Under the pieces are notes generated by a model. It did not search any database and was not told the DNA's origin. It saw nothing but the letters and a program-made list of their open reading frames with translations. 64,000 nt of DNA from NCBI GenBank assembly GCA_947625755.1, contig CANQPJ010000009.1:1-64000 (forward strand). The letters are read 5' to 3'. Made by a program: the position numbers and the translations under genes. The DNA is from an uncultured Lachnospiraceae bacterium. GTDB taxonomy: Bacteria; Bacillota; Clostridia; Lachnospirales; Lachnospiraceae. Shown one piece after another: positions 1,725 through 22,948 of this stretch (positions within the stretch are counted from its first letter, which is position 1; each line of letters starts with the position of its first letter).

Positions 1725-1733
1725 CTTACGCAC

Positions 1734-1817
1734 AAAAGAAAAGTACCACCCCAGGCAATTTAATGTCCGAAACGGTACCCGCGTGCGCCTCCAGGGGCTC
1801 GAACCCTGCACACCCTG
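1734..1817 (-). repeat. Copy of the tRNA-Lys 3' half and its downstream flank (att-like)
   Basis: These 84 bases match 22826-22909 with one mismatch. Bases 1784-1817 are the T-arm, acceptor strand and part of the anticodon stem of tRNA-Lys on the minus strand. The match ends at CACCCTG inside the anticodon stem. The 5' half is missing, so no tRNA is made here. This is the typical left scar of integration into a tRNA gene. Confidence 0.8.
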
Positions 1818-6231: not shown

Positions 6232-6580
6232 TTATTTTACATAAACGTTTGATAATTTCATTATATCTTTATCAATTTCTTCTTTCTCTGCCCTTGCAGC
6301 CATTTTACCTCCCAGCAATTCATTCGTTTCTTCCACAGCCCCATTAAACAAATAACCATCAAACTCTCTGCCATACATATCTTTCAATTCCTCTTTTGCC
6401 TGTTGCTCTAATTCCGGTCTGATTTTGACTCGTTCTTCTGAAACTTTTTCTGCATCCTCCGGCTCAACCTTATCCTTTGCAATATCATATCCCAGATATG
6501 CTATAGCCTTATTCGTTTCAATCTTATCTGTCATCTTTTCAAGTCCTGATATTACATCTTGTAAATCGTAACTTTCTACG
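6232..6580 (-). pseudogene. Remnant of a MobA/MobL relaxase (C-terminal tail), copy 2
   Basis: The translated stretch (KIET...YLGYDIAKDKVEPED, RPELEQQAKEEL, MYGREFDGYLF, AVEETNELLGGK, MAARAEK) matches the C-terminal end of the relaxase at 17791. Upstream in-frame similarity (DVISGLEKM against DTISRLEEM) continues to about 6565-6580, where the transposon region begins. The start codon of the open frame has no ribosome site. It is the broken 3' end of element A's relaxase, cut off by the transposon insertion or an associated deletion. Confidence 0.8.
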
Positions 6581-9564: not shown

Positions 9565-10483
9565 AACATGCCTACTCTCCCAGCTCCATGCGAAAGCAAT
9601 TCTATGTTTTAAATGGAATGTTTAAGTATGCTGTGTTTCCAAAGAAGTTCTTGAGAGAAAATCTGATGCAGTATGTGAAACGCCGTAAGAAGGAAAAGAA
9701 AGCAACACTCTTTGGTGATGAACAGAAAGTGAAGGCTCCTACCATTACCAATAACGAGTATGAACGGATTATCGATTTCCTGACAAATGATGAAACGTCT
9801 TATTCTTTGGCGTTGCCGGTACAGATTTCCTATCATACCGGAATGAGAGCCGGGGAAGTTTGTGGCCTGACTTGGGATGATGTAGATTTTGAAAACCAAT
9901 GCATCTATGTAAAGCGTTCCATGTACTATGATTCCAACACAAAATGCTGGGAGTTGAAAACGCCGAAGAACGGGAAATCTCGTGTAATTGATTTCGGAGA
10001 TTCACTGTATAGGATTCTTCAGAAAGCAAAGAATGAAATGCTAGAAGCGCGGGAAACCTACGGCAATCTTTATCAGAAGCATTATTGCCAGATGATTGAA
10101 ACTAACGGAAAACAACATTGTCAGATATTTACGGATTATGACGAGAGTGTCATTGAAAATACATCCCGGTTCTGTCATGGAAAACCGATTTCGTCAATGA
10201 ATCACAATGAGCCAGTCATTCCATTATCCTTTGTTTGTCAGAAACCCGATGGGGAACTGCTGACAACACAGACACTGAAATGGTGTAATAAGGTAGTTCA
10301 GAAAAATTTTCCGGATATCAGCCATTTTCATTTCCATTGTTTGAGACATACTTATGCGACTACGTTGGTAGCAGCAGGAGCAAATGTAAAGGATGTGCAA
10401 GAGTTATTAGGACATTCCGATATTAAGATTACACTGAATACTTATTCTCATGTGACAAGACAGACAAGAAAACGGGCTGTGGG
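9565..10483 (+). pseudogene. Truncated Tn916-type integrase, near-identical copy of the int at 21146
   Basis: The 919 bases match 21567-22485 with a single difference (A at 10433, G at 22435). The copy lacks the first 140 residues (arm-binding domain) and the last ten. At the shared GTGGG (10479-10483) the frame runs into the left-end sequence of element B and gains a foreign C-terminus ending near 10583. The catalytic Arg, His-x-x-Arg and Tyr are still present, but without the N-terminal domain and with no ribosome site it is unlikely to work. The left break lies about 30 bases past the transposon's candidate end. Confidence 0.9.
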
Positions 10484-12599: not shown

Positions 12600-14693
12600 T
12601 TAATCAATATTTGCATTTGCTACGTATGATGTTACAGTTCCACCATTACCCTGAACATATCTGGATAAGCGTTTTTTCAAAAATAACTGGCTGTTGCTCG
12701 TATAAGTTTGCTTTTCTAATGCATTTATTATCTCAGCACAATCACCATAATTATTTGACACTAAGCAATCTATACTATAATCTATTGCAGCCTCCGCAAC
12801 TACCCATCGTCCTTTAACCACGGTTTGATCATCAGCTCCAGAAATTTGTGTATCTGGGTTATTATAATTTTTTGCATGTACTATGAGTTTTTTATCTGAT
12901 TTTCTATATGTTTTATGTGCAAATGTATCTCCTAATATATGAAGCGCTATTCCCCATGTAAAATATTTCTTGTTTTTATCTGTATTTGAAACATTCAAAT
13001 CCGAAAAAATTTTTTTCCATGTGACTGCTCCGGCTCCTTCACCTTCAAAATCCCATTTAATCCATTCATAACTAGCTTGTCCAAGTCCCTTGATGGTGCT
13101 TCTATTTATTGTTGAAGCTTTTCCTTTATTTAAGGCAATCCTTGTCACAAATTCATAGCATGCTATATAATTTGTATCATTACCACCAATATCCATATAC
13201 CCACCGTGATACTCAGCATTATCTTCAAGACCATTCATTTCTGATTCAGTACTGTCTGGATAAACTGCTCCTGCTTTAAGGACAGCCAATTCTGTTGTAT
13301 TTGTAACACCATTTTTCTTTGCACCAGATGCTACAAGGCTTTGATGTCCAGCTTTCAGCCATCTTCCTTCTACATAAGACAAATCATCCTCAACTTCTTT
13401 AAATGTTCCAACTGCTTCATTATTATCAGGTATAAATTCTTTTATCTCAAAATCTGTTTCTAAAAAGTTCTTTTCAAATTCTTCATATATGTCTGATGCA
13501 TATCCTGCATCTAAAAGTCCGCAATCATTTGTATTTTCAATATTTTTTGAACTATAATTAATTAATTGTCTAATAAATTCATTCGATTTTGATAAATCTT
13601 GTTCCCATAATAACGATGCAACGCCAACTACTTGTGGTACAGCAATACTGGTCCCGTGTGTTACGCCATTCATTCCAAAGAATCCTAAAACTTTTACCTT
13701 TTCTCCGGGTGCAGCTACATCCAGTTCTTCACCGGTATTGCTAAAATCACTTATTTCTGATTCCGTATTTGTTGCCGCAACTGCCATTACTTCTTCAAAC
13801 GCAGCCGGATATTCTACATCGCTATCATGGTTTCCTGCAGCTGCCACCATTAAAATATTTGCTTTATATGCATCCTCTATAGCCTTTTCTAATGTTTTCG
13901 AATATGCTGCAGTACCAAAACTCATATTGATTATATTAATATCATTTTCAATACACCAATAAAGACCTTCAACAATTCTACTAATTGGCGCTTGATTGTT
14001 TTTATCTAATACTTTTACGGAATATAGTTCCACATTCGGATTGACGCCTTGAACAACATTATCCTCCGTTCCTGCTATCACACTGGCAATATTTGTACCA
14101 TGACCTGTAAGATCTTGATAGTATGTAGCAACCCAATCTTCTGTTTCAACAAAATTAACGCTTTTTGCTAGGTTAATACCAGATATAAAGTCAACACCTG
14201 AATCCAGAACTGCTACTTTGACTTTATCCTTCGTCTTTGCCTTTTTATCTACTTCGTCTACATTTATTGCTTGTAAATTCCACTCTGCTTCTCTTTTTTC
14301 TTTTGTTTTCTTCTGTTCTTTTTTTAATCGTTTATATAGTTCCTTTTTAGATTTACTACCTGGTTTTACTATACTAGCTTCCAATACCAAATTTTCTTCA
14401 ATTATGATGTTGCTATCCTCATTCAGTTCTTGTGCTTCTTGTTCTGAAAGTTTCGCCACTATTATGTTATTGTTACACAAATTTTCTTCCTTGTCTATTG
14501 ATTTTTCATCAATAGCCTTCATTGCTCTATTATATGCTTTGCCATTTTTTGCAACAATGATATAATCTTTGATTTTTCCATTATTTTTTGCATTTATAGT
14601 AAAGTTACCTATTCCAATAACTCCACTCAACATTGTGATTGTTAACAATAAACTAATTACTCTCTTCATAAAAATCCGTTTTTTATTTTTCAT
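12600..14693 (-). CDS. Secreted S8 subtilisin fused to a phospholipase C-like metal-binding domain
   Basis: A 697-residue protein. In order: signal peptide (1-35), an I9-type propeptide (about 42-107), a subtilisin domain (about 155-365) and a long C-terminal domain (about 440-697). The catalytic triad is visible as Asp164 (AVLDSGVD), His198 (TGHGTNIAS) and Ser349 (HGTSIAVPQ), with oxyanion Asn288 (AAAGNHDS). The C-terminal part contains His450, Asp480 (AGAVYPD), His496 and the spaced set His585-x3-Asp589-x3-His593 (ALHILGDTFAHK), which recalls zinc-dependent phospholipase C or S1/P1 nuclease folds. The second assignment is inference. It lies 53 bases after agrB, so it is probably agr-controlled. 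It could act outside the cell or take part in peptide maturation. Confidence 0.85.
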   Translation of the reverse strand: MKNKKRIFMKRVISLLLTITMLSGVIGIGNFTINAKNNGKIKDYIIVAKNGKAYNRAMKAIDEKSIDKEENLCNNNIIVAKLSEQEAQELNEDSNIIIEENLVLEASIVKPGSKSKKELYKRLKKEQKKTKEKREAEWNLQAINVDEVDKKAKTKDKVKVAVLDSGVDFISGINLAKSVNFVETEDWVATYYQDLTGHGTNIASVIAGTEDNVVQGVNPNVELYSVKVLDKNNQAPISRIVEGLYWCIENDINIINMSFGTAAYSKTLEKAIEDAYKANILMVAAAGNHDSDVEYPAAFEEVMAVAATNTESEISDFSNTGEELDVAAPGEKVKVLGFFGMNGVTHGTSIAVPQVVGVASLLWEQDLSKSNEFIRQLINYSSKNIENTNDCGLLDAGYASDIYEEFEKNFLETDFEIKEFIPDNNEAVGTFKEVEDDLSYVEGRWLKAGHQSLVASGAKKNGVTNTTELAVLKAGAVYPDSTESEMNGLEDNAEYHGGYMDIGGNDTNYIACYEFVTRIALNKGKASTINRSTIKGLGQASYEWIKWDFEGEGAGAVTWKKIFSDLNVSNTDKNKKYFTWGIALHILGDTFAHKTYRKSDKKLIVHAKNYNNPDTQISGADDQTVVKGRWVVAEAAIDYSIDCLVSNNYGDCAEIINALEKQTYTSNSQLFLKKRLSRYVQGNGGTVTSYVANANID

Positions 14694-14745: not shown

Positions 14746-15336
14746 TTAATTGTTTGTTATCTTATAAAACACATTACTTAATATGCCTAGAAGAAAACTA
14801 CTGCAATTTAATAAGACAAAAACGGTCGCGCTTGATGCTATATTTAAATTAAGCTTTAATAATACTAATAAAAGAACAAAATCAATTACAATAATTACAA
14901 TTGTTATTTTTTTATTTCTTTTATATTGATAATCAGCCAATGGTCTATTTTGATTTTTCACAGGAGACCATATGTACATAATAATTAATGCAATAAACGT
15001 TACTATTATAATATTTATATTATTATGCAATCCTAAATATTTTTTAACGATGCCTAACGAAAATAAATACATTGCATTTGACAGCATAAAACAAGTTTCA
15101 CTTCGTTTTGAATGATATCCTCCAGCAAACATTCTTAATGGCAAAAAGAAAATTAAAAATCCTATAAAATGAAATACCATATCAAACCATATACTCATTA
15201 TCAAAAAGCAAATTAACAATAATCCGTTCAATAAAATAGCTTCAAGTCCATAATTATATATTTCCCTATTTGCTATATCTAATCTTTTATGTTTTATTAA
15301 TAAAAACACTAAATTTTCCGCTATGTATTTAAACAT
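14746..15336 (-). CDS. agrB: AgrB-type membrane endopeptidase
   Basis: A 196-residue membrane protein of the accessory gene regulator B family. It has about five hydrophobic segments and the catalytic pair His75 and Cys82 in RMFAGGYHSKRSETC, at the same spacing as in the staphylococcal enzyme. It is known to cut the C-terminal tail from the AgrD propeptide and join the peptide into a ring. Its ATG lies two bases after the agrD stop, so the two are translated together. The usual length of the family is about 190-210, so the gene is complete. Confidence 0.93.
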   Translation of the reverse strand: MFKYIAENLVFLLIKHKRLDIANREIYNYGLEAILLNGLLLICFLIMSIWFDMVFHFIGFLIFFLPLRMFAGGYHSKRSETCFMLSNAMYLFSLGIVKKYLGLHNNINIIIVTFIALIIMYIWSPVKNQNRPLADYQYKRNKKITIVIIVIDFVLLLVLLKLNLNIASSATVFVLLNCSSFLLGILSNVFYKITNN

Positions 15337-15338
15337 AT

Positions 15339-15491
15339 CTAACCTACGCTTTTCTTTTTAATTTTATCTTTCTTTACAATTTTCTCTGGTAATTTTGGCT
15401 CATAAAATGCAAACCATGAAGATGTTTCGCCTGATGCTTCTGCAACTACTCTTATTGCCTTCCCTATAAAACTTTTCTTTCGCTTCATCAT
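15339..15491 (-). CDS. agrD: AgrD-type autoinducing-peptide precursor with Ser in place of ring Cys
   Basis: A 50-residue peptide with AGGAGGT nine bases before the ATG at 15491 (a second ATG follows at 15488). It has the AgrD layout: a Lys-rich amphipathic leader (KRKKSFIGKAIRVVAE), a core (ETSSWFAF) and an acidic-then-basic tail that begins YEPKLPEKI, the conserved recognition element for AgrB. There is no Cys in the protein. The position of the ring Cys in clostridial peptides (as in CLWF) is taken by Ser, so the predicted signal is a lactone such as SSWFAF or SWFAF. The exact ends of the peptide are inferred. Confidence 0.88.
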   Translation of the reverse strand: MMKRKKSFIGKAIRVVAEASGETSSWFAFYEPKLPEKIVKKDKIKKKSVG

Positions 15492-15614
15492 ATTGTAATA
15501 ACCTCCTTTCTTTTTTGATTTTGCTCTTAAGTTATTTGCATCAATTCTCGACCATTTTGTATCTTATTTTAAGATTATCAAAAAAATCCTCTATTTAGGG
15601 ATTTCTTGTATAAC

Positions 15615-15641
15615 TGGTTATTTTTTTTGCGTATTTGGTTA
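15615..15641 (-). promoter_or_regulatory. Direct repeat upstream of agrD, possible AgrA-like operator
   Basis: TAACCA occurs at 15641-15636 and 15620-15615 on the minus strand, a 21-base period as in LytTR operators. The match to the LytTR consensus beyond the GTT core is weak. It lies about 125 bases upstream of agrD, beyond the terminator of the kinase gene. Confidence 0.45.
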
Positions 15642-15650
15642 CTTACATTA

Positions 15651-15680
15651 AAAAAGTCGGTGTGTAAACCGACTTTTTAT
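15651..15680 (-). terminator. Terminator of the regulator/kinase operon
   Basis: AAAAAGTCGGT and ACCGACTTTTT form an 11-base stem with TTTTTT on the minus strand. It separates the kinase gene from agrDB. Confidence 0.85.
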
Positions 15681-15705
15681 TTCAACATTTCCTATTTTTT
15701 TCTAT

Positions 15706-17007
15706 TTATTCATTTATTAACAAAATTGAAACACAAAACTCATTTTCCTCACTATCAAATGATATTTCTCCTCCATATTTTTTTACTATATTTTTCACAC
15801 TCTTTAGACCAATTCCATGAAACATTTTATTGTCTTTGGTTGTTTCCATATGTTCCATTAAAATTCCTCTAAAGCTGTTCTTAATAACAATCATTAAAAA
15901 CTTATTATTCTGTTTTATGTTAATATCTATATATGTATTATCTTCTCTTTCGCAAGCCTCTATGGCATTGTCAATTAAATTTCCCAAAATATTGGCTAAA
16001 TCGATCGCATTAACCCTACATTTCCTTGGAATAGCAGCATTAACCACAAATATAATTCCCTTTTGTTCGGCAATCTTTTGCTTTGTATTTATCATAGCAT
16101 CTACCATGTCATTTCCCGTTTTGATATAAAACATCTTTGTATCAATCAATGCATTTTCTTTTTTCAGGTATTTTTTTATTTCCTCAATATTCCCATCTTC
16201 CGCTAATTGGGTTAACGAAATAATATTATTTTTATAATCGTGAACGCTCTGTCTCCACAAATCAAATGCTCGTTCTGTATCGTCCAGAGATTTTTGCAGC
16301 ATGTCATTTTTTATTTCGATTAGTGTTACTGTTTGTTGCTGCTCATAATAATCCTGCATATTCATAACAAAATAAAATAACAGAATTTGAATACCTATTG
16401 ATATTACAAAAAAAATCATCGAAAATACTTCACTATCAGTACCTATGCTTCCTATCGTCACAAAATTTGACAACAATAAAAATAATGAACTAAGACATAG
16501 TACTATTACATATTTTAATGATATTGATTTTCTTTTCTTATATATTTTGCTTATGATCAATATTAACATCACTAAAAGAGTTTTACTGAAAAAAATACAT
16601 ATAACTCTTTTCGGACTATGCTCATTCAATAAATAGTCCATTTTTGTATGTAATAAAAATGTCATTAAATATGCCGTAAAAAAATCGATTGCCGATAAAA
16701 GTACTGCATATATAAGTATTAATACAGAAGACAGTACAACTTTTTTGTATATCAACCACAAAAAAAGTGTACATATTACTAAAAAAAGTAAGGATGAAAT
16801 ATGAGAAAACATGTTTATACTGTTCAACCCTATCAAAATAAATGCACTTAAAATAGAAACGACCATTACCTGTGTACGTTTTTCTTCAACAGAGTTTTCA
16901 CTTATAAAACTTCCACAAAAATAAAAGCATATGACCACTTCCAAAAAACTGGCCGCATACTCCACTCCCCAAAAAACCATCTCCATCTCTACATTTTTCC
17001 TCTCCAA
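15706..17007 (-). CDS. agrC: AgrC-type sensor histidine kinase
   Basis: A 433-residue kinase. The first 215 residues contain six or seven hydrophobic segments. The H-box is SVHDYKNNIISLTQLAEDG, followed by a 'NDMVDAMINTKQ' stretch, the N-box NLIDNAIEACER and the glycine box FHGIGLKSVKNIV, all typical of the GHKL kinases that sense cyclic peptides. The gene overlaps the regulator upstream by 19 bases. Its expected ligand is the peptide made from agrD at 15339, which lies next in the same direction. It shares the family, but little beyond motifs, with the kinase at 4705. Confidence 0.92.
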   Translation of the reverse strand: MERKNVEMEMVFWGVEYAASFLEVVICFYFCGSFISENSVEEKRTQVMVVSILSAFILIGLNSINMFSHISSLLFLVICTLFLWLIYKKVVLSSVLILIYAVLLSAIDFFTAYLMTFLLHTKMDYLLNEHSPKRVICIFFSKTLLVMLILIISKIYKKRKSISLKYVIVLCLSSLFLLLSNFVTIGSIGTDSEVFSMIFFVISIGIQILLFYFVMNMQDYYEQQQTVTLIEIKNDMLQKSLDDTERAFDLWRQSVHDYKNNIISLTQLAEDGNIEEIKKYLKKENALIDTKMFYIKTGNDMVDAMINTKQKIAEQKGIIFVVNAAIPRKCRVNAIDLANILGNLIDNAIEACEREDNTYIDINIKQNNKFLMIVIKNSFRGILMEHMETTKDNKMFHGIGLKSVKNIVKKYGGEISFDSEENEFCVSILLINE

Positions 17008-17714
17008 TATTTTAATAATTCTTCTTTAACATCTTTTATTCTTCTTCTACTCACAATTAATCTTTCCCCATTGTCCAAAGTCACATCATAACTTGAAAAC
17101 TCACTTATGTACTTAACATTAACTACACATCCACTATGTAGCTTTATAAATTTTTCATCATTCATTTCTTTTAGTAATTCCTTTATGGTTTTCCATGTCA
17201 ACAAATTTGTTCCATCCGATAAATGAATATTTAATCTTCTGTCCTCTATTTCATAATACATTATTTCTGAATGATACAGTCTTACCTCGCCATCATCTGT
17301 CTTTATAATTATATTTCTATCTTTCTCATTTTCTAATCTTGTAAATGCAGCTTTCATCGCCAATGGCAATTCTTCAGAAATTTTATTTTTTCTGATATAT
17401 CTAAATGGACTGTATTCAATTGACTCAAAGACATATTGTTCATGTGCAGAAATGAAAATAAGAATGATATCAGATCCTTTCTCTCGAAGTTTTTTAGCAA
17501 CCTCAAGTCCTGAAATATTCGGCATATCTATATCTAAAAATAAAATATCGAAGTCCTCTTTATTATTGTAAATCAAATTCACAACCTTATTTCCATCCGT
17601 ATACAGGTATGTTTCTATCGTAATATTTAAAGTATTTGCTAATTGAAATAATTCTTTTTGAATATTTTCTAAAGAATCCTTTTCATCATCACACACCGCA
17701 ATGTTTATTATCAT
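16989..17714 (-). CDS. agrA: AgrA-type LytTR response regulator
   Basis: The ATG at 17714 is chosen because AGGGGG lies just upstream; an earlier in-frame start has none. The protein has 241 residues. The receiver domain has the acidic pair in IAVCDDEKD and the phospho-acceptor in DILFLDIDMPNISG. The LytTR domain (about 140-241) has IMYYEIEDRRLNIHL, FIKLHSGCVVNVKYI and LIVSRRRIKD. It is the first gene of the operon with the kinase. Its probable target is the 21-base-period repeat before agrD. Confidence 0.92.
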   Translation of the reverse strand: MIINIAVCDDEKDSLENIQKELFQLANTLNITIETYLYTDGNKVVNLIYNNKEDFDILFLDIDMPNISGLEVAKKLREKGSDIILIFISAHEQYVFESIEYSPFRYIRKNKISEELPLAMKAAFTRLENEKDRNIIIKTDDGEVRLYHSEIMYYEIEDRRLNIHLSDGTNLLTWKTIKELLKEMNDEKFIKLHSGCVVNVKYISEFSSYDVTLDNGERLIVSRRRIKDVKEELLKYWRGKM

Positions 17715-17765
17715 TATATTCCCCCTTATGCTGTAATTTTTTGCCAATAGTATTGTACCACAACA

Positions 17766-17795
17766 AAGAAGGTAATGAAACCTCATTCTACTACC
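17766..17795 (-). terminator. Terminator at the relaxase 3' end
   Basis: AAGAAGGTA and TACCTTCTT form a stem that overlaps the relaxase stop codon. It also lies just before the regulator gene. No long T-run follows on the minus strand, so strength is uncertain. Confidence 0.5.
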
Positions 17796-19335
17796 TTCTT
17801 ATTTCATCTAAATCCTTATCAACCTCTATTTCCTCTGCCCTTGCAGCCACTTTTCCTTCCAGTAACTCATCTGTTTCTTCCACAGCATCCTCAAACAGAA
17901 ACTCATCAAACTCCCTGCCATACGCATCTGCCAGTTCCTCTTTTGCCTGTTGCTCCATCTTCGATCTGATTTTGGTTCGTTCTTCTGCAACTTCCTTTTC
18001 GTCCTCCGGCTCAACCTTAGTCTTTACAAGATAGTATTCAAGATTTGCCCAATCTCTGTTCATCTCAATTTTCTCTTTCATTTCTTCCAGTCTTGAAATG
18101 GTATCCTTATACCTTTCTTCACTCTCGATACATTCTTCCATTTCATACATGGAATATATTTTATAAAACTGTGGCAAATCTCTTAACTGTCTGTCTATCT
18201 GATAAAGTTCCATCTGGATTTCCTTTAATGCTTCCACAGCCTGTTCCCTTTGTTTTTTCTTTTGCTTTCTGGAATGAACAACCATTTCATAGGAACGCTT
18301 TTCTTCATTCAGACGATTTCTTTTTCTAATTAGGTCATATGCTTTTTTGATAACATTCATGTTCCTTGGAACAAGTTTTCGGAATTTCTTGATTTCTCTG
18401 TCATTATTCTTTTCTGCATATACTGTGCATAGAAAACTTTTTCGCAAATTTTCCAGATTTTTTGCAATTCCAATGACTTTATCCTTTACACTTTGTGCCA
18501 ATTGTTTTGCTTCTTGTTTAAGTTTTGTAATCTCCTCATTATAGAAACGGAGCATCTTATTAACGATTCTGATATGTCGGTTGATTTCTCCCCTCTCTGT
18601 TTTGATGTTCTTCTTCTCCATCTGGGACGCCGCAGTTCCTAAATGCTTTGTCGGTAAAATCTCAAGTCCCTGTCTTTCATAAGAGCGATGGTCAACTCGT
18701 TCATTTCGTCCAGCTTGTTGAAGATATTTGTTACATAATTCCGCCCAACTCTTTCTCCACTTTTCGACATTGTTCCTGTCATTCCAGTCTGTTGTGGAAA
18801 CGGATTTACATTTGTACTGGCGTTTCTTTTGGTCATAGATTTTTTCTCCATTCTCATCAAGAATGTATTCTTTTTTCTGCTTGCTTCCCCAGCTTCCATC
18901 TTTGTTAAACGGTCTTACCGTCAACATGATATGTGCATGGGGATTTCCGTCACCTTTATCATGAAAACAGATATCTGCTATCATTCCCTTTTCTACAAAA
19001 TTCTTCTGACAAAACTCGGCTACCAGATGATAGCCTTCTGCAAAATTCAATTCCTTTGGAATGGAAACCTCCACTTCTCTTGCAAGTTGTGCATTCTTTG
19101 CTTTTTCTATCTTCTCTACTGCATTCCACAACTTGGAGCGGTTATAAAACTCTATTGGTGCATTGTCCGGCAATAAGATGGATGTCATTACCACGCCACG
19201 CTTTCTTGTGTAATCATGGATAATGCCGTCATATTCATTGGTGATTTTCTCAGCACTTCTGTATGCAGCGGCTGCAACGGCAGATTTTCCTTTTCCTCTT
19301 GAAATCATCTTCACGGATAAATGGAAAATCGCCAT
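17791..19335 (-). CDS. mobA: MobA/MobL (MobQ-type) relaxase
   Basis: A 514-residue relaxase. The ATG at 19335 is chosen because AAGGAGGG lies upstream and the protein then begins MAIFHLSVKMISRGKGKSAV, the normal start of this family. Tyr25 (AAAAYRS) is the likely nicking residue, and the metal-binding His pair is His133 and His135 (GNPHAHIMLTVRP). From about residue 260 the protein is a long charged coiled coil, and the last 140 residues are acidic. It should nick the oriT at 19503-19515 and lead DNA into a helper conjugation channel. Tails of two related genes remain at 1081 and 6232. Confidence 0.93.
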   Translation of the reverse strand: MAIFHLSVKMISRGKGKSAVAAAAYRSAEKITNEYDGIIHDYTRKRGVVMTSILLPDNAPIEFYNRSKLWNAVEKIEKAKNAQLAREVEVSIPKELNFAEGYHLVAEFCQKNFVEKGMIADICFHDKGDGNPHAHIMLTVRPFNKDGSWGSKQKKEYILDENGEKIYDQKKRQYKCKSVSTTDWNDRNNVEKWRKSWAELCNKYLQQAGRNERVDHRSYERQGLEILPTKHLGTAASQMEKKNIKTERGEINRHIRIVNKMLRFYNEEITKLKQEAKQLAQSVKDKVIGIAKNLENLRKSFLCTVYAEKNNDREIKKFRKLVPRNMNVIKKAYDLIRKRNRLNEEKRSYEMVVHSRKQKKKQREQAVEALKEIQMELYQIDRQLRDLPQFYKIYSMYEMEECIESEERYKDTISRLEEMKEKIEMNRDWANLEYYLVKTKVEPEDEKEVAEERTKIRSKMEQQAKEELADAYGREFDEFLFEDAVEETDELLEGKVAARAEEIEVDKDLDEIRR

Positions 19336-19382
19336 CTGTTTCTCCCTCCTTTTCCTTTGTGTTTTTGTTGATGGGAGAAACA

Positions 19383-19516
19383 GTAACACGGTCTGCCTGT
19401 ATGGAATATAGAGCTGACCGTGTTACCGCCCTCCGCAGGAGCCCTCGGAGAGCGCGCGTCCGACACCTGTGTCGGGAGATACCACAACCTGCTTGTGGTA
19501 TATAAGTGCGCCCTTG
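19383..19516. other. oriT: Origin of transfer (oriT) of MobQ type
   Basis: Just upstream of mobA is a G+C-rich stretch full of hairpins: GTAACACGGT/ACCGTGTTAC (19383-19426), CCGACAC/GTGTCGG, and TACCACAA/TTGTGGTA (19480-19500). The last is followed directly by TATAAGTGCGCCCTT. The TAAGTGCGCCCT sequence (19503) is the nick-region consensus of RSF1010-like MobQ plasmids, where it also follows an inverted repeat. Position, structure and relaxase type all agree. Confidence 0.85.
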
Positions 19517-19549
19517 GTACCCTCCGGGACTTTGCAATCCCTGTATGTC

Positions 19550-19798
19550 TTACCTGATTTCCTTCATATATTCTCTGACATATGGTGTATTAAACGCATA
19601 CTTTACGATTTCTGAAACTTCCTCATTTGTTAAATTTTCCGGTTCCACCAAATACTGTTCCAGTATTGCCCCTCGCTGAATCAGCCTTCTTGTTCTTTCC
19701 TTTCGTGCCTGTGCTTTTTCTTTTGCAACAACTTCCTTTTTTAGGTTTTTCAGACGGTCAATGTCAATCTGAATTTCTGCTGATGTCCTTCTTGTCAT
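19550..19798 (-). CDS. DUF3847 family protein
   Basis: The third ATG (19798) is preferred because AGAAGGAG lies eight bases upstream; the product is 82 residues. It begins TRRTSAEIQIDIDRLKNLKKEVVAKEKAQARKERTRR-like and is a short, highly charged coiled coil followed by a helical end (LTNEEVSEIVKYAFNTP). This matches DUF3847, which is found next to MobA/MobL relaxases in mobilizable elements of Clostridia. It probably helps the relaxosome, by analogy with other small accessory proteins, but its role is not established. It is transcribed toward oriT and mobA. Confidence 0.75.
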   Translation of the reverse strand: MTRRTSAEIQIDIDRLKNLKKEVVAKEKAQARKERTRRLIQRGAILEQYLVEPENLTNEEVSEIVKYAFNTPYVREYMKEIR

Positions 19799-19878
19799 TC
19801 TCATCATCTCCTTCTTTTATTATCAATATTCATGCGTTTGCTAATGCTCATTTTGAAAACCGTTATAGCAAATTTTTG

Positions 19879-19908
19879 TTGATAACCAAACCGGAAACAT
19901 GATATAAT
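19879..19908 (+). promoter_or_regulatory. Promoter of the predicted small RNA
   Basis: TTGATA (19879-19884) and TATAAT (19903-19908) are separated by 18 bases. No open reading frame follows, but a terminator does at 19953. Confidence 0.65.
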
Positions 19909-19914
19909 TTAGTT

Positions 19915-19985
19915 GCGTGTAGGTATATCATGACTTCGGTCTGATATCCTTGAAAGGGTAGTTTCCGGACTGCCCTTTTATATTT
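19915..19985 (+). ncRNA. Predicted small RNA, complementary to the int leader
   Basis: The transcript would be about 70 bases. It has a first hairpin closed by a UUCG loop (GAC-TTCG-GTC, extended by ATATCA/TGATAT) and a second, terminator hairpin (AAAGGGTAGT with ACTGCCCTTT, then T-rich). Its 5' part, TTGCGTGTAGGTATATCA (19913-19930) plus ACTTCGGTC, is complementary to 21069-21097, in the leader of the integrase mRNA, with two mismatches in 29. It may thus be a trans-acting antisense regulator of int. Expression is not shown by sequence alone. Confidence 0.55.
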
Positions 19986-20208
19986 TTGTGTTTCTTGTAA
20001 CTGCCTTTACATCAGCCCTGTCTCGTAGATTTCTCCCTTCATTCATGGTCATGAATGTTTCCAGAATATCTGTTTTGACAAGTACTTTTCTTCCTACTTT
20101 CAGTACCGGGAGTTTTTTCCACTCCACCAGATTTCTTATAGTGTTTCTTCCGATTCCTGTGTATTCAGATGCCTCCTCAATCGTAAAGGCAATTTTATCT
20201 TTTTTCAT
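19978..20208 (-). CDS. xis: Excisionase-type helix-turn-helix protein
   Basis: A 76-residue protein. The ATG at 20208 is preferred over a GTG nine bases earlier because GAAGG lies at a proper distance. The sequence FTIEEASEYTGIGRNTIRNLVEWKKLPVLKVGRKVLVKTDILETFM is a winged HTH_17 domain of the MerR/Xis type, nearly the whole protein, as in Tn916-like excisionases. It should bend DNA at the element ends and favour excision by the integrase at 21146. It is divergent from the XRE regulator, and the small-RNA terminator overlaps its 3' end. Confidence 0.85.
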   Translation of the reverse strand: MKKDKIAFTIEEASEYTGIGRNTIRNLVEWKKLPVLKVGRKVLVKTDILETFMTMNEGRNLRDRADVKAVTRNTKI

Positions 20209-20380
20209 AAACCTCACCTTCTTTCCGTTGCAATACGCAACTCGATTGAGTGTTTATTATAACACTTTATGAAATCTTGTCAAGCATTTTGCACTCCTGT
20301 TTCTTTTTATAAAATTGCATATTGCAATAATGCTTTGTCTGTGTTATAGTATGTTCATACCGAAAAGGAGGTTGCTGAAA

Positions 20381-20998
20381 ATGAAAGATAAAGAATTACG
20401 CAAACTCATTGGAAGCAGAATCAAACAAAGAAGATTGGAATTAAATCTCGGTCAGCAGTATATCGCTGAAAAGATGGATGTAAACAAGTCTACGATACAA
20501 CGATATGAAGCAGGCACAATTGACAATTCCAAGAAACTGATTCTGGAAGGTCTCGCCGAAGCACTTCATGTTTCTGTGGAATGGCTAAAGGGTGAAACGG
20601 ATGATTACGAAACAGACATTACGGATAAGAGAGAATTACAAATCCGGGATGCCATGTCGGACATTCTAACCATTTTTCCTCTTGATATGAAAGAAAGGGA
20701 ATCAGATTTTTCCAAAGCCTTACTTCTATTGATGCTTCGCGAGTATGCAGCATTCAATGATTCATTTAAAACGGCCTGTGAGAAATACTCCGGTAACAAT
20801 GGCAACGATAACCTTGCCAAAACCGCAGGCTTTGAATCAGCAGATGAATTCAACGAGATACTTTTCTTAAGAGAAGTTACCCACACCATCAACACTTTGA
20901 ATGAGATGGGCGACATCATTAGAATGTATTCAAAGAATCCGGATGTTGCAGTTACCAGAATACAGAATCTTTTAGATGAGCATTCCGACTCGGTATAA
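20381..20998 (+). CDS. XRE-family transcriptional regulator of element B
   Basis: The ATG at 20381 follows AAAGGAGG and gives 205 residues. Residues 1 to about 65 are a Cro/CI helix-turn-helix (IGSRIKQRRLELNLGQQYIAEKMDVNKSTIQRYEAGTID). The rest is helical and may mediate dimerisation or peptide sensing. It lies between the divergent xis gene and int, so it probably governs the choice between integration and excision. The 147-base gap before int holds the antisense target and short stems. Confidence 0.85.
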   Translation: MKDKELRKLIGSRIKQRRLELNLGQQYIAEKMDVNKSTIQRYEAGTIDNSKKLILEGLAEALHVSVEWLKGETDDYETDITDKRELQIRDAMSDILTIFPLDMKERESDFSKALLLLMLREYAAFNDSFKTACEKYSGNNGNDNLAKTAGFESADEFNEILFLREVTHTINTLNEMGDIIRMYSKNPDVAVTRIQNLLDEHSDSV

Positions 20999-21060
20999 AG
21001 AAATCATTAGAGATATGAAATCTTGGCAACAATTGTACCTTGAAAATTAAATACTAGAGT

Positions 21061-21105
21061 ACTTAACCGACCGAAGTTTTGATATACCTACACGCAAGTA
21101 CAATA
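21061..21105 (+). promoter_or_regulatory. int mRNA leader with the small-RNA target
   Basis: GTACTT (21058-21063) and AAGTAC (21096-21101) can pair and enclose TGATATACCTACACGCAA (21080-21097), the exact complement of 19913-19930. GACCGAAG just before extends the match. The target lies about 50-70 bases before the int start. Confidence 0.55.
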
Positions 21106-21145
21106 TCTAGACTCTGACCGGTTTTCTACTTGGAAAGGAGTCAAT

Positions 21146-22519
21146 ATGAACGACAACAATTTTATTCAAAACGGAAGTGTCCGAAAACGAGGAAATGTCT
21201 GGTATTACCGTTTCCGTATCAAAGATGACAATGGAAAGTGGATTATGAAAGAGTTTCGTGGTTCGGAAAGCAAATCCGAAACCAATAGACTTTTAAAGCA
21301 GGCGATTGACGATTACAATAAAGAACAATGTATTTACGATCCGGGCTCTATTACTGTGAATGAATTGGCACAGATGTGGTATCAGGCAGAGATTGAAACT
21401 GCTCCCCTGACAACCAACAGTCAATACAATCACTTAAACGTAATGAAGCACATCGCAAATCACTCTCTTGGAAATACAAAACTTCGTGATGTGACTTGTG
21501 AACAGTTGCAAGCCTATGTTGATGAAAAATACTTTGGCGAGTATGACGAAAACGGAAAGCAATTGAAACATGCCTACTCTCCCAGCTCCATGCGAAAGCA
21601 ATTCTATGTTTTAAATGGAATGTTTAAGTATGCTGTGTTTCCAAAGAAGTTCTTGAGAGAAAATCTGATGCAGTATGTGAAACGCCGTAAGAAGGAAAAG
21701 AAAGCAACACTCTTTGGTGATGAACAGAAAGTGAAGGCTCCTACCATTACCAATAACGAGTATGAACGGATTATCGATTTCCTGACAAATGATGAAACGT
21801 CTTATTCTTTGGCGTTGCCGGTACAGATTTCCTATCATACCGGAATGAGAGCCGGGGAAGTTTGTGGCCTGACTTGGGATGATGTAGATTTTGAAAACCA
21901 ATGCATCTATGTAAAGCGTTCCATGTACTATGATTCCAACACAAAATGCTGGGAGTTGAAAACGCCGAAGAACGGGAAATCTCGTGTAATTGATTTCGGA
22001 GATTCACTGTATAGGATTCTTCAGAAAGCAAAGAATGAAATGCTAGAAGCGCGGGAAACCTACGGCAATCTTTATCAGAAGCATTATTGCCAGATGATTG
22101 AAACTAACGGAAAACAACATTGTCAGATATTTACGGATTATGACGAGAGTGTCATTGAAAATACATCCCGGTTCTGTCATGGAAAACCGATTTCGTCAAT
22201 GAATCACAATGAGCCAGTCATTCCATTATCCTTTGTTTGTCAGAAACCCGATGGGGAACTGCTGACAACACAGACACTGAAATGGTGTAATAAGGTAGTT
22301 CAGAAAAATTTTCCGGATATCAGCCATTTTCATTTCCATTGTTTGAGACATACTTATGCGACTACGTTGGTAGCAGCAGGAGCAAATGTAAAGGATGTGC
22401 AAGAGTTATTAGGACATTCCGATATTAAGATTACGCTGAATACTTATTCTCATGTGACAAGACAGACAAGAAAACGGGCTGTGGGAATTTTTGAAAATGC
22501 GATTCATGGAGTGGGATAA
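21146..22519 (+). CDS. int: Tn916-type tyrosine integrase
   Basis: A 457-residue integrase with GGAAAGGAG before its ATG. In order: an N-terminal AP2-like arm-binding region (1 to about 65, RKRGNVWYYRFRIKDDNGKW), a SAM-like core-binding domain (about 70-180) and the catalytic domain (about 200-450). Catalytic residues visible are Arg235 (HTGMRAGEV), His-x-x-Arg-His (HCLRHTY), His (LGHSDIKIT) and Tyr434 (NTYSHV). It sits 80 bases from the GTGGGCAA repeats that mark the element's right end. A 919-base part is duplicated at 9565. It appears fully functional. Confidence 0.95.
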   Translation: MNDNNFIQNGSVRKRGNVWYYRFRIKDDNGKWIMKEFRGSESKSETNRLLKQAIDDYNKEQCIYDPGSITVNELAQMWYQAEIETAPLTTNSQYNHLNVMKHIANHSLGNTKLRDVTCEQLQAYVDEKYFGEYDENGKQLKHAYSPSSMRKQFYVLNGMFKYAVFPKKFLRENLMQYVKRRKKEKKATLFGDEQKVKAPTITNNEYERIIDFLTNDETSYSLALPVQISYHTGMRAGEVCGLTWDDVDFENQCIYVKRSMYYDSNTKCWELKTPKNGKSRVIDFGDSLYRILQKAKNEMLEARETYGNLYQKHYCQMIETNGKQHCQIFTDYDESVIENTSRFCHGKPISSMNHNEPVIPLSFVCQKPDGELLTTQTLKWCNKVVQKNFPDISHFHFHCLRHTYATTLVAAGANVKDVQELLGHSDIKITLNTYSHVTRQTRKRAVGIFENAIHGVG

Positions 22520-22676: not shown

Positions 22677-22829
22677 TTTTGCATGAAAAGGACAAGTTCG
22701 AATTCGTGCCTACGGCACTACTTCTCACTTCACGGCATTCGCCGTATATAAAGGAAAAACGAGACTTTCTCTGGCGAGCAAGCTCTCCTCGAAATTCTCG
22801 TTTTCCTTCATATCCTTTTCATTGCAAAA
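22677..22829. repeat. Multi-arm foldback repeat downstream of tRNA-Lys
   Basis: An outer stem (TTTTGCATGAAAAGGA, 22677-22692, against 22813-22829 with one bulge) encloses GTGCC/GGCAC, ACGGC/GCCGT and a long arm AAGGAAAAACGAGA pairing with TCTCGTTTTCCTT. The design equals the repeat at 1584-1724. Confidence 0.7.
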
Positions 22830-22875
22830 GAAAAGTACCACCCCAGGCAATTTAATGTCCGAAACGGTACCCGCA

Positions 22876-22948
22876 TGCGCCTCCAGGGGCTCGAACCCTG
22901 CACACCCTGATTAAGAGTCAGGTGCTCTACCAAATGAGCTAGAGGCGC
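22876..22948 (-). tRNA. tRNA-Lys (anticodon CTT)
   Basis: Read on the minus strand, it starts GCGCCTCTAGCTC and folds into a full cloverleaf: acceptor GCGCCTC/GAGGCGC, D-arm with TTGGTA, anticodon stem CCTGA/TCAGG with loop CTCTTAA, and T-arm CAGGG-TTCGAGC-CCCTG. The CCA end is not encoded. It is a junction gene: an integrated element of 8.7 kb begins within its anticodon arm at 22910, so its 5' half and promoter were brought in by that element. Confidence 0.95.

Follow-up and report, generated by a model that had tools for sequence, protein, structure and literature searches.

A candidate small RNA carried with the excisionase gene of Lachnospiraceae mobilizable elements and predicted to pair with the integrase mRNA leader

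What is the role of an 18-nucleotide sequence that occurs twice, in inverted orientation, on the two sides of the excisionase (xis) and XRE-family regulator genes of a mobilizable-type element in an uncultured Lachnospiraceae bacterium? The original prediction, made from the letters of the window (i.e., the whole 64,000-nucleotide stretch of DNA analyzed here), regarded one copy as the 5' part of a short antisense RNA and the other as its target in the leader of the integrase (int) mRNA. This antisense reading is well supported by sequence comparison, in which the two arms covary and a pair of DNA sites is disfavored, and the sign of the control is suggested by predicted folds. We favor, with a probability of roughly two in three, an element-encoded antisense RNA that acts on a leader about 1.1 kb from its own gene and lowers int translation by refolding it.

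The element adjoins a tRNA-Lys gene (22876-22948) and has int, xis, a MobQ relaxase, and att-like repeats (Table 1), which, together with the lack of a conjugation apparatus, would define an integrative and mobilizable element. The XRE regulator and int probably form one operon, and a consensus scan of the plus strand from 20925 to int found no promoter-like site. The window also contains traces of nested or tandem elements, namely, relaxase-like repeats (1082-1542 and 6255-6552) and, at 9565-10483, a duplicated 3' portion of int (99.9% identical to 21567-22485) that has another C-terminal tail. The cargo at 14746-17786 and 12600-14693, named from its open reading frames, has the appearance of an agr-type peptide signaling set (an AgrB-like protein, a short peptide, a histidine kinase, and a LytTR regulator) and a subtilisin-like protein.

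Table 1. Positions in the window of the element's features and of the predicted small RNA and its target
Feature	Position	Strand	Basis or remark
Predicted small RNA, ~70 nt	19914..19986	+	Promoter, fold, terminator; RNA-model R2 match 19900-19986
Small-RNA promoter: TTGATA (19879-19884), 18-bp spacer, TATAAT (19903-19908), extended -10 TG	19879..19908	+	Consensus scan
UUCG-capped hairpin of small RNA	19921..19950	+	Fold
Intrinsic terminator stem of small RNA	19951..19980	+	13 pairs, then T-run
Single-stranded 5' tail of small RNA, UUGCGUGUA		+	Proposed seed
Target site in int leader, 29 nt	21069..21097	+	Complement of 19913-19941
3' arm GACUCU, can pair with Shine-Dalgarno GGAGUC once the 5' arm is taken	21110..21115	+	Inferred switch
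int Shine-Dalgarno region GGAGTC	21137..21142	+	
int, tyrosine integrase (Phage_integrase)	21146..22519	+	
XRE-family regulator	20381..20998	+	Upstream of int
Promoter-like site before XRE, 9/12, TG	20322..20350	+	Consensus scan
xis (Tn916-Xis/excisionase family)	19978..20208	-	
xis promoter, consensus 12/12	20256..20283	-	Transcript would cross small-RNA gene antisense
DUF3847 gene	19550..19807	-	Downstream of xis
MobQ/MobA-MobL relaxase	17791..19338	-	
Left att-like direct repeat, 85 bp	1733..1817		98.8% to 22825-22909
Right att-like direct repeat	22825..22909		Contains 3' part of tRNA-Lys

The predicted RNA gene lies between the DUF3847 gene and xis, on the same strand as int, and has a promoter and a terminator of its own. 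The sigma-A promoter of the original prediction was recovered with 11 of the 12 consensus bases and an extended -10 element, and so was the predicted transcript of about 70 bases with a UUCG-capped hairpin and a terminator. As a 71-nt RNA, it folds at -28.0 kcal/mol, compared with a mean of -13.8 kcal/mol for 200 shuffles (z = -5.0), none of which was as low. Consensus scans of 19300-21300 found nine promoter-like sites (5.4 expected from shuffles) and one terminator-like site (1.5 expected), the latter being that of the small RNA itself. Because these counts are near the shuffle level and by themselves constitute little proof, the case for the small RNA rests on its arrangement, fold, and conservation. 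As a small correction, the RNA may start inside the 18-mer, whose first TT (19913-19914) is 5 to 6 nt downstream of the -10 box. A small peptide encoded in the RNA was considered and rejected: the window's tiny AUG...UGA frame is not kept in relatives (one of them, L134, has no AUG there; relatives are identified by locus, L, and genome, G, numbers), in agreement with the claim that the transcript has no reading frame. At the gathering threshold, Rfam release 15 gave only two tRNAs in the whole window; low-threshold scans of 19300-21400 and five relatives gave nothing at threshold save one tRNA in L007, and no Rfam family was found in L151, L127, or L136.

The 18-mer TTGCGTGTAGGTATATCA (19913-19930, plus strand) has its inverted copy at 21080-21097, and no third place in the 64 kb matches it with three or fewer mismatches (0.04 expected by chance). 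Searching the bacterium's own genome with a 151-base stretch (E ≤ 0.001) likewise returned only the two known places. The match extends to 29 nt with two departures, as originally described, one being a G.U pair and the other a U-U mismatch. The target does lie in the int leader: it ends 48 nt before the int ATG in the window and 41 to 70 nt before the start in 13 leaders with a continuous target. Duplex energy, which the original prediction had named as a check along with covariation of both arms, is predicted at -41 to -57 kcal/mol for nearly perfect duplexes of 25 to 29 bp between the small RNA and the leader.

BLAST with the RNA region gave matches in 12 of 200 host-family genomes (E ≤ 0.001). 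A covariance model built from nine sequences (R2, with a structure drawn by us in place of that of a first model, R1, in which the -10 box was part of a stem with the RNA) matched 31 of 397 host-family genomes and 7 of 391 genomes of the class at E ≤ 0.01, the window's own genome being included in both counts; five of these seven come from other families, and four of the five are weak. The strong match outside the family (L146) is on a contig that stops right after the RNA. We treated 36 loci as strong, i.e., 32 from the family (L105 to L136) plus the window, L003, L006, and L007, and 14 of the 46 regions examined (13 weak matches and L146) are not among them. Also outside the 36 are L008, L009, L010, and L014 (the same as L007), L013 (of the L007 type, with RNA and target present), and duplicate loci of the same genomes (L049 to L060 and L069 to L104).

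The best complement of the RNA is a site before int in 35 of the 36 strong loci, and the remaining one (L135) reaches its contig end before int would begin. The promoter elements TTG and TGnTAnnnT are present in all 36, a terminator hairpin was found in the representatives that were aligned and folded, and the order small RNA, xis (minus strand), XRE, leader, and int is kept wherever the genes are intact (xis or XRE is damaged in L123, L124, and L130). Pairing is continuous in 25 of the 35 loci; in the other 10, the target is split by an insert of ~75 nt that falls between RNA positions 14 and 15, and both halves can still pair. The insert (L111, L112, L115, L120 to L122, L125, and L129 to L131) is structured, and similar elements occur with and without it (e.g., L129 and L128). 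In one named carrier, plasmid NZ_CP143948.1 of the commensal Agathobacter rectalis DFI.5.28 (locus L151), the target precedes the integrase gene and the RNA is unannotated, between a hypothetical gene and a small helix-turn-helix gene.

None of the weak matches (L137 to L145 and L147 to L150; E = 1.3e-5 to 0.008) has a convincing target before a recognizable int; one of them (L149), with a moderate complement, is a chromosomal metabolic locus and was rejected. Small-RNA-like stretches in L137 (4001-4090) and L140 (4001-4072), with no int match in the stretch examined, are possibly remnants or RNAs with other targets. A weak RNA-model match on the minus strand of a viral contig (L064, 3567-3659; 20.5 bits, E = 0.075) lies ~340 nt before a distant integrase, and viral contigs gave no exact copy of a 19-mer. 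A leader-complement scan of 13 further loci found none above its 60 shuffles except L013 and, slightly, L020 (19.2 versus 18.4), where the match is AT-rich.

The distribution of the RNA follows that of its neighbors. A search of 200 genomes for XRE homologues (E ≤ 1e-20) returned 12 near full-length sequences, the window's own included, all 12 of which have the small RNA; fragments were found in two genomes, that in G014 being uninformative since it sits at a contig end. Two sister elements (L004 and L005) with the same gene order and integrases 61% and 59% identical to that of the window have neither small RNA nor target. Both RNA and target are present in the loci from L105 to L133 with full-length matches, in which the integrases are 36 to 39%, XRE 62 to 70%, and xis 61 to 78% identical. 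By these comparisons, it is with xis and XRE that the small RNA moves from one integrase to another, and the target moves along with it. By eye, a good Shine-Dalgarno sequence and a short open reading frame can be seen in the int leaders of L004 (3880-3930) and L005 (3900-3925), where a leader peptide might stand in for the RNA.

How the RNA would act is suggested by the fold of the leader. Covariation of the leader stem was counted in 13 leaders, all of the L105 or L134 type (L110, L124, the window, L006, L007, and the insert types were left out); in these 13, the target makes up the loop of a hairpin and its 5' arm. In this stem, 96.6% of cells pair (0 of 500 shuffles as high) and three pairs are changed on both sides (reached by 13 of 500 shuffles); further pair types are not above shuffles (404 of 500). 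We propose that the free 5' tail of the small RNA would nucleate on the loop of this hairpin and that the duplex would spread into the 5' arm, to about 25 to 29 bp, full pairing requiring the UUCG-capped hairpin to unwind. The 3' arm would be released and could pair with the int Shine-Dalgarno sequence or start codon, resulting in less int translation, and cleavage of the duplex by RNase III may add to the repression. Fold prediction with the target masked allows the 3' arm to pair with the Shine-Dalgarno sequence in the window and L006, with the Shine-Dalgarno sequence and UUG start in L007, and with the start codon and following codons in L105-type leaders. This pairing is a fold prediction, the codons concerned being invariant. 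No terminator-like site was found in the int leader of the window by a simple consensus scan, and control would therefore not be by attenuation. An int transcription start below the target would bypass the small RNA.

For 18 of the 25 continuous loci we computed what it costs to open the int start region, and for 14 we compared the result with shuffled spacers. With a 6-nt 5' context, masking the target raised this cost in all 18 loci (+0.4 to +8.5 kcal/mol); with a 60-nt context, it did so in 17, L128 showing the reverse. In all 14 loci compared with shuffled spacers, the rise was above the mean of the shuffles, with a fraction of ≤0.03 in 10. In the window it was modest (+2.2, fraction 0.10), and pairing between the 3' arm and the Shine-Dalgarno sequence was not stronger there than with shuffled spacers (fractions 0.25 to 0.38). 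In our reading, the higher opening cost means that int translation would be repressed. Per-base openness was more varied. Among 16 leaders (30-nt context, changes of ≥0.05 counted), masking the target lowered the openness of the Shine-Dalgarno sequence in 2 (the window and L007), raised it in 7, and left it alike in 7; for the start codon, the numbers were 7 down, 1 up (L126), and 8 alike. Three insert-type leaders with 14 nt masked showed no change in openness. The released segment of nine L105/L134-type loci was more stable than 91 to 100% of shuffles, and that of the window formed a hairpin no stronger than shuffles; the stretch from Shine-Dalgarno sequence to start was clearly more closed only in L006 and L007. 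The leader switch is accordingly offered as a predicted one, and its sign, i.e., repression by folding, is uncertain because the measures are mixed.

An account that overlaps with ours, possible though doubtful, is that the RNA chiefly triggers RNase III cleavage and decay of the int mRNA, with little refolding. Long near-perfect RNA duplexes such as the one predicted here are natural substrates of RNase III, and decay would suit mixed folding measures of either sign; however, the location of the target within a covarying leader hairpin and the rise in the opening cost of the start region go beyond what decay needs. A positive action of the RNA, which would open a leader fold that hides the Shine-Dalgarno sequence and so allow int to be translated, is kept as a rival because of the mixed Shine-Dalgarno results, and we consider it unlikely. 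Unbound L105, L110, and L006 leaders do pair this sequence with the end of XRE (30-nt upstream context), and besides the seven leaders that became more open there upon masking, the released Shine-Dalgarno-to-start stretch was more open than the shuffled mean in eight of nine L105/L134-type loci. Nevertheless, the start region as a whole became costlier, not cheaper, to open, L006 and L007 form hairpins over the Shine-Dalgarno sequence or start when the target is masked, and a ribosome finishing XRE would be expected to break the upstream pairing.

Repression by an antisense RNA presupposes that the two arms pair as RNA, and for this the relatives provide the evidence. We counted 15 distinct continuous pairs of RNA and target, leaving out five distinct insert-type pairs, L135, and L013. 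Standard pairs make up 97.1% of the 419 cells, and sliding the partner by one to three columns reduces pairing to 28 to 47%. Changes on both sides occur at 7 of 28 positions (shuffled mean, 1.5; 0 of 500 shuffles reach 7), a significance that the shuffles overstate, as the rows are related by descent. Three lineages (L007, L006, and L134/L136) account for the double changes, so that the covariation looked for in both arms is present, also in distant relatives. The seed of L007, UUGCUUAGAGG, differs from the other seeds and matches its own leader, CCUCUAAGCAA; the L007 duplex is stronger than every crossed duplex by at least 17 kcal/mol. Of the cells at positions 1 to 25 (a cut of our choosing), 314 are Watson-Crick, 54 are G.U (spread over nine positions), 7 are of other kinds, and none is A.C; positions 1 to 28 contain 59 G.U and 1 A.C, the latter at position 27. 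Pairing frays past position 25, and position 29, outside the count, is A.C in most L105-type pairs. Since G.U is kept and A.C is absent, RNA pairing is indicated rather than a protein-binding DNA repeat; a DNA-binding protein has no reason to favor G.U over A.C, and the preference is tied to this strand pair.

The original prediction itself had raised the alternative of an integrase/Xis binding-site pair. In this view, extended here to the XRE regulator, one of these proteins would bind both copies of the repeat as DNA, and the nearby promoter and terminator would be incidental. We consider it highly improbable: two sites of one protein could also change together, and the target overlaps a -10-like TGATATACT in L105-type leaders, but this box is altered in the window, L007, and L134, the G.U preference and the conserved promoter and terminator would go unexplained, and the window has only two copies. 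Neither is near an att-like repeat (the distances to the right one are 1.7 and 2.9 kb), whereas arm-type integrase sites would be expected in multiple copies to the left and right of the att core. The idea of an internal int promoter at TGATATACT was dropped, without proof, as the box is not kept.

The antisense RNA might also be coupled to excision. The xis promoter matches the full consensus, and the consensus scan found no terminator-like site on the minus strand of 19300-21300; the xis-mob message should therefore contain the full complement of the small RNA. When the xis-DUF3847-mob operon is on, its message would cross the small-RNA gene on the opposite strand, where it would interfere with synthesis of the small RNA and sequester it, so that Int would rise with Xis. 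Genome G391 has eight copies of the element (L107, L112, L113, L115, L120 to L122, and L132), all with an identical 29-nt small-RNA arm and together with four kinds of target sequence, and one RNA should therefore act on all of them. Crossed duplexes among window-, L105-, and L134-type pairs are predicted to be of about cognate strength. The L006 RNA prefers its own leader by 5 kcal/mol, and the L136 RNA pairs with the L006 leader almost as well (-41.2 versus -43.2 kcal/mol). Tentatively, the small RNA could have two larger roles, as the center of a coupling switch made of RNA and as a determinant of incompatibility, an idea that we would not expect to hold in full. If it were true, the xis-mob message would be a perfect antisense sponge that lifts the block on int exactly when the excision and transfer genes are on, and a resident element would silence the integrases of incoming relatives that share its 29-nt arm; elements with another seed (the L007 type) would escape, as in plasmid incompatibility groups.

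To our knowledge, integrase control in such elements has mostly been put down to protein regulators. The candidate described here would be a compact RNA layer of this control in the 31 host-family genomes; it would explain the balance of Int and Xis, and elements that share a seed would be predicted to silence one another. A close parallel is RNA-OUT of IS10 (the partner of RNA-IN), a stable antisense RNA of ~70 nt that represses the recombinase of its element at translation and can also act in trans on other copies; its gene is opposite its target, and it pairs with the start of the transposase gene. The predicted RNA is likewise a ~70-nt antisense RNA of a mobile element directed against the element's own recombinase, but here this is a tyrosine integrase, the RNA gene is on the same strand as int with xis and XRE in between, and pairing would occur at a leader hairpin farther upstream, not at the translation start.

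FinP-traJ, Anti-Q, and pT181-type leader-control RNAs are cis-encoded and fully complementary to their targets. As in FinP-traJ, Anti-Q, and plasmid leader control, an antisense RNA would here bind a structured leader of a mobility or replication gene and switch its hairpins; unlike these RNAs, it is encoded elsewhere and its complementarity is partial. FinP and Anti-Q appear in earlier work (PMC9299015 and PMC6540685). Among the matches listed in the open-licence full-text literature, which mostly excludes subscription papers, none concerned an antisense RNA against the tyrosine integrase of a mobilizable element, and the terms "antisense" and "small RNA" are absent from the accessible text of a review of integrative and mobilizable elements (PMC5704250). 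RteR of CTnDOT, a Bacteroides element, is described in the available part of PMC9299015 as a small RNA that represses the tra operon; compared by description only, it resembles the candidate in coming from an integrated mobile element of gut bacteria and in keeping transfer low, and it differs in that its target is not the integrase. The same part of that source describes the sgm-sRNA of SGI1 as required for transfer and processed from a longer transcript, with no pairing target reported by its authors (PMC9299015). Like the RNA predicted here, sgm-sRNA is a small RNA of a mobilizable island, located near the mobilization genes.
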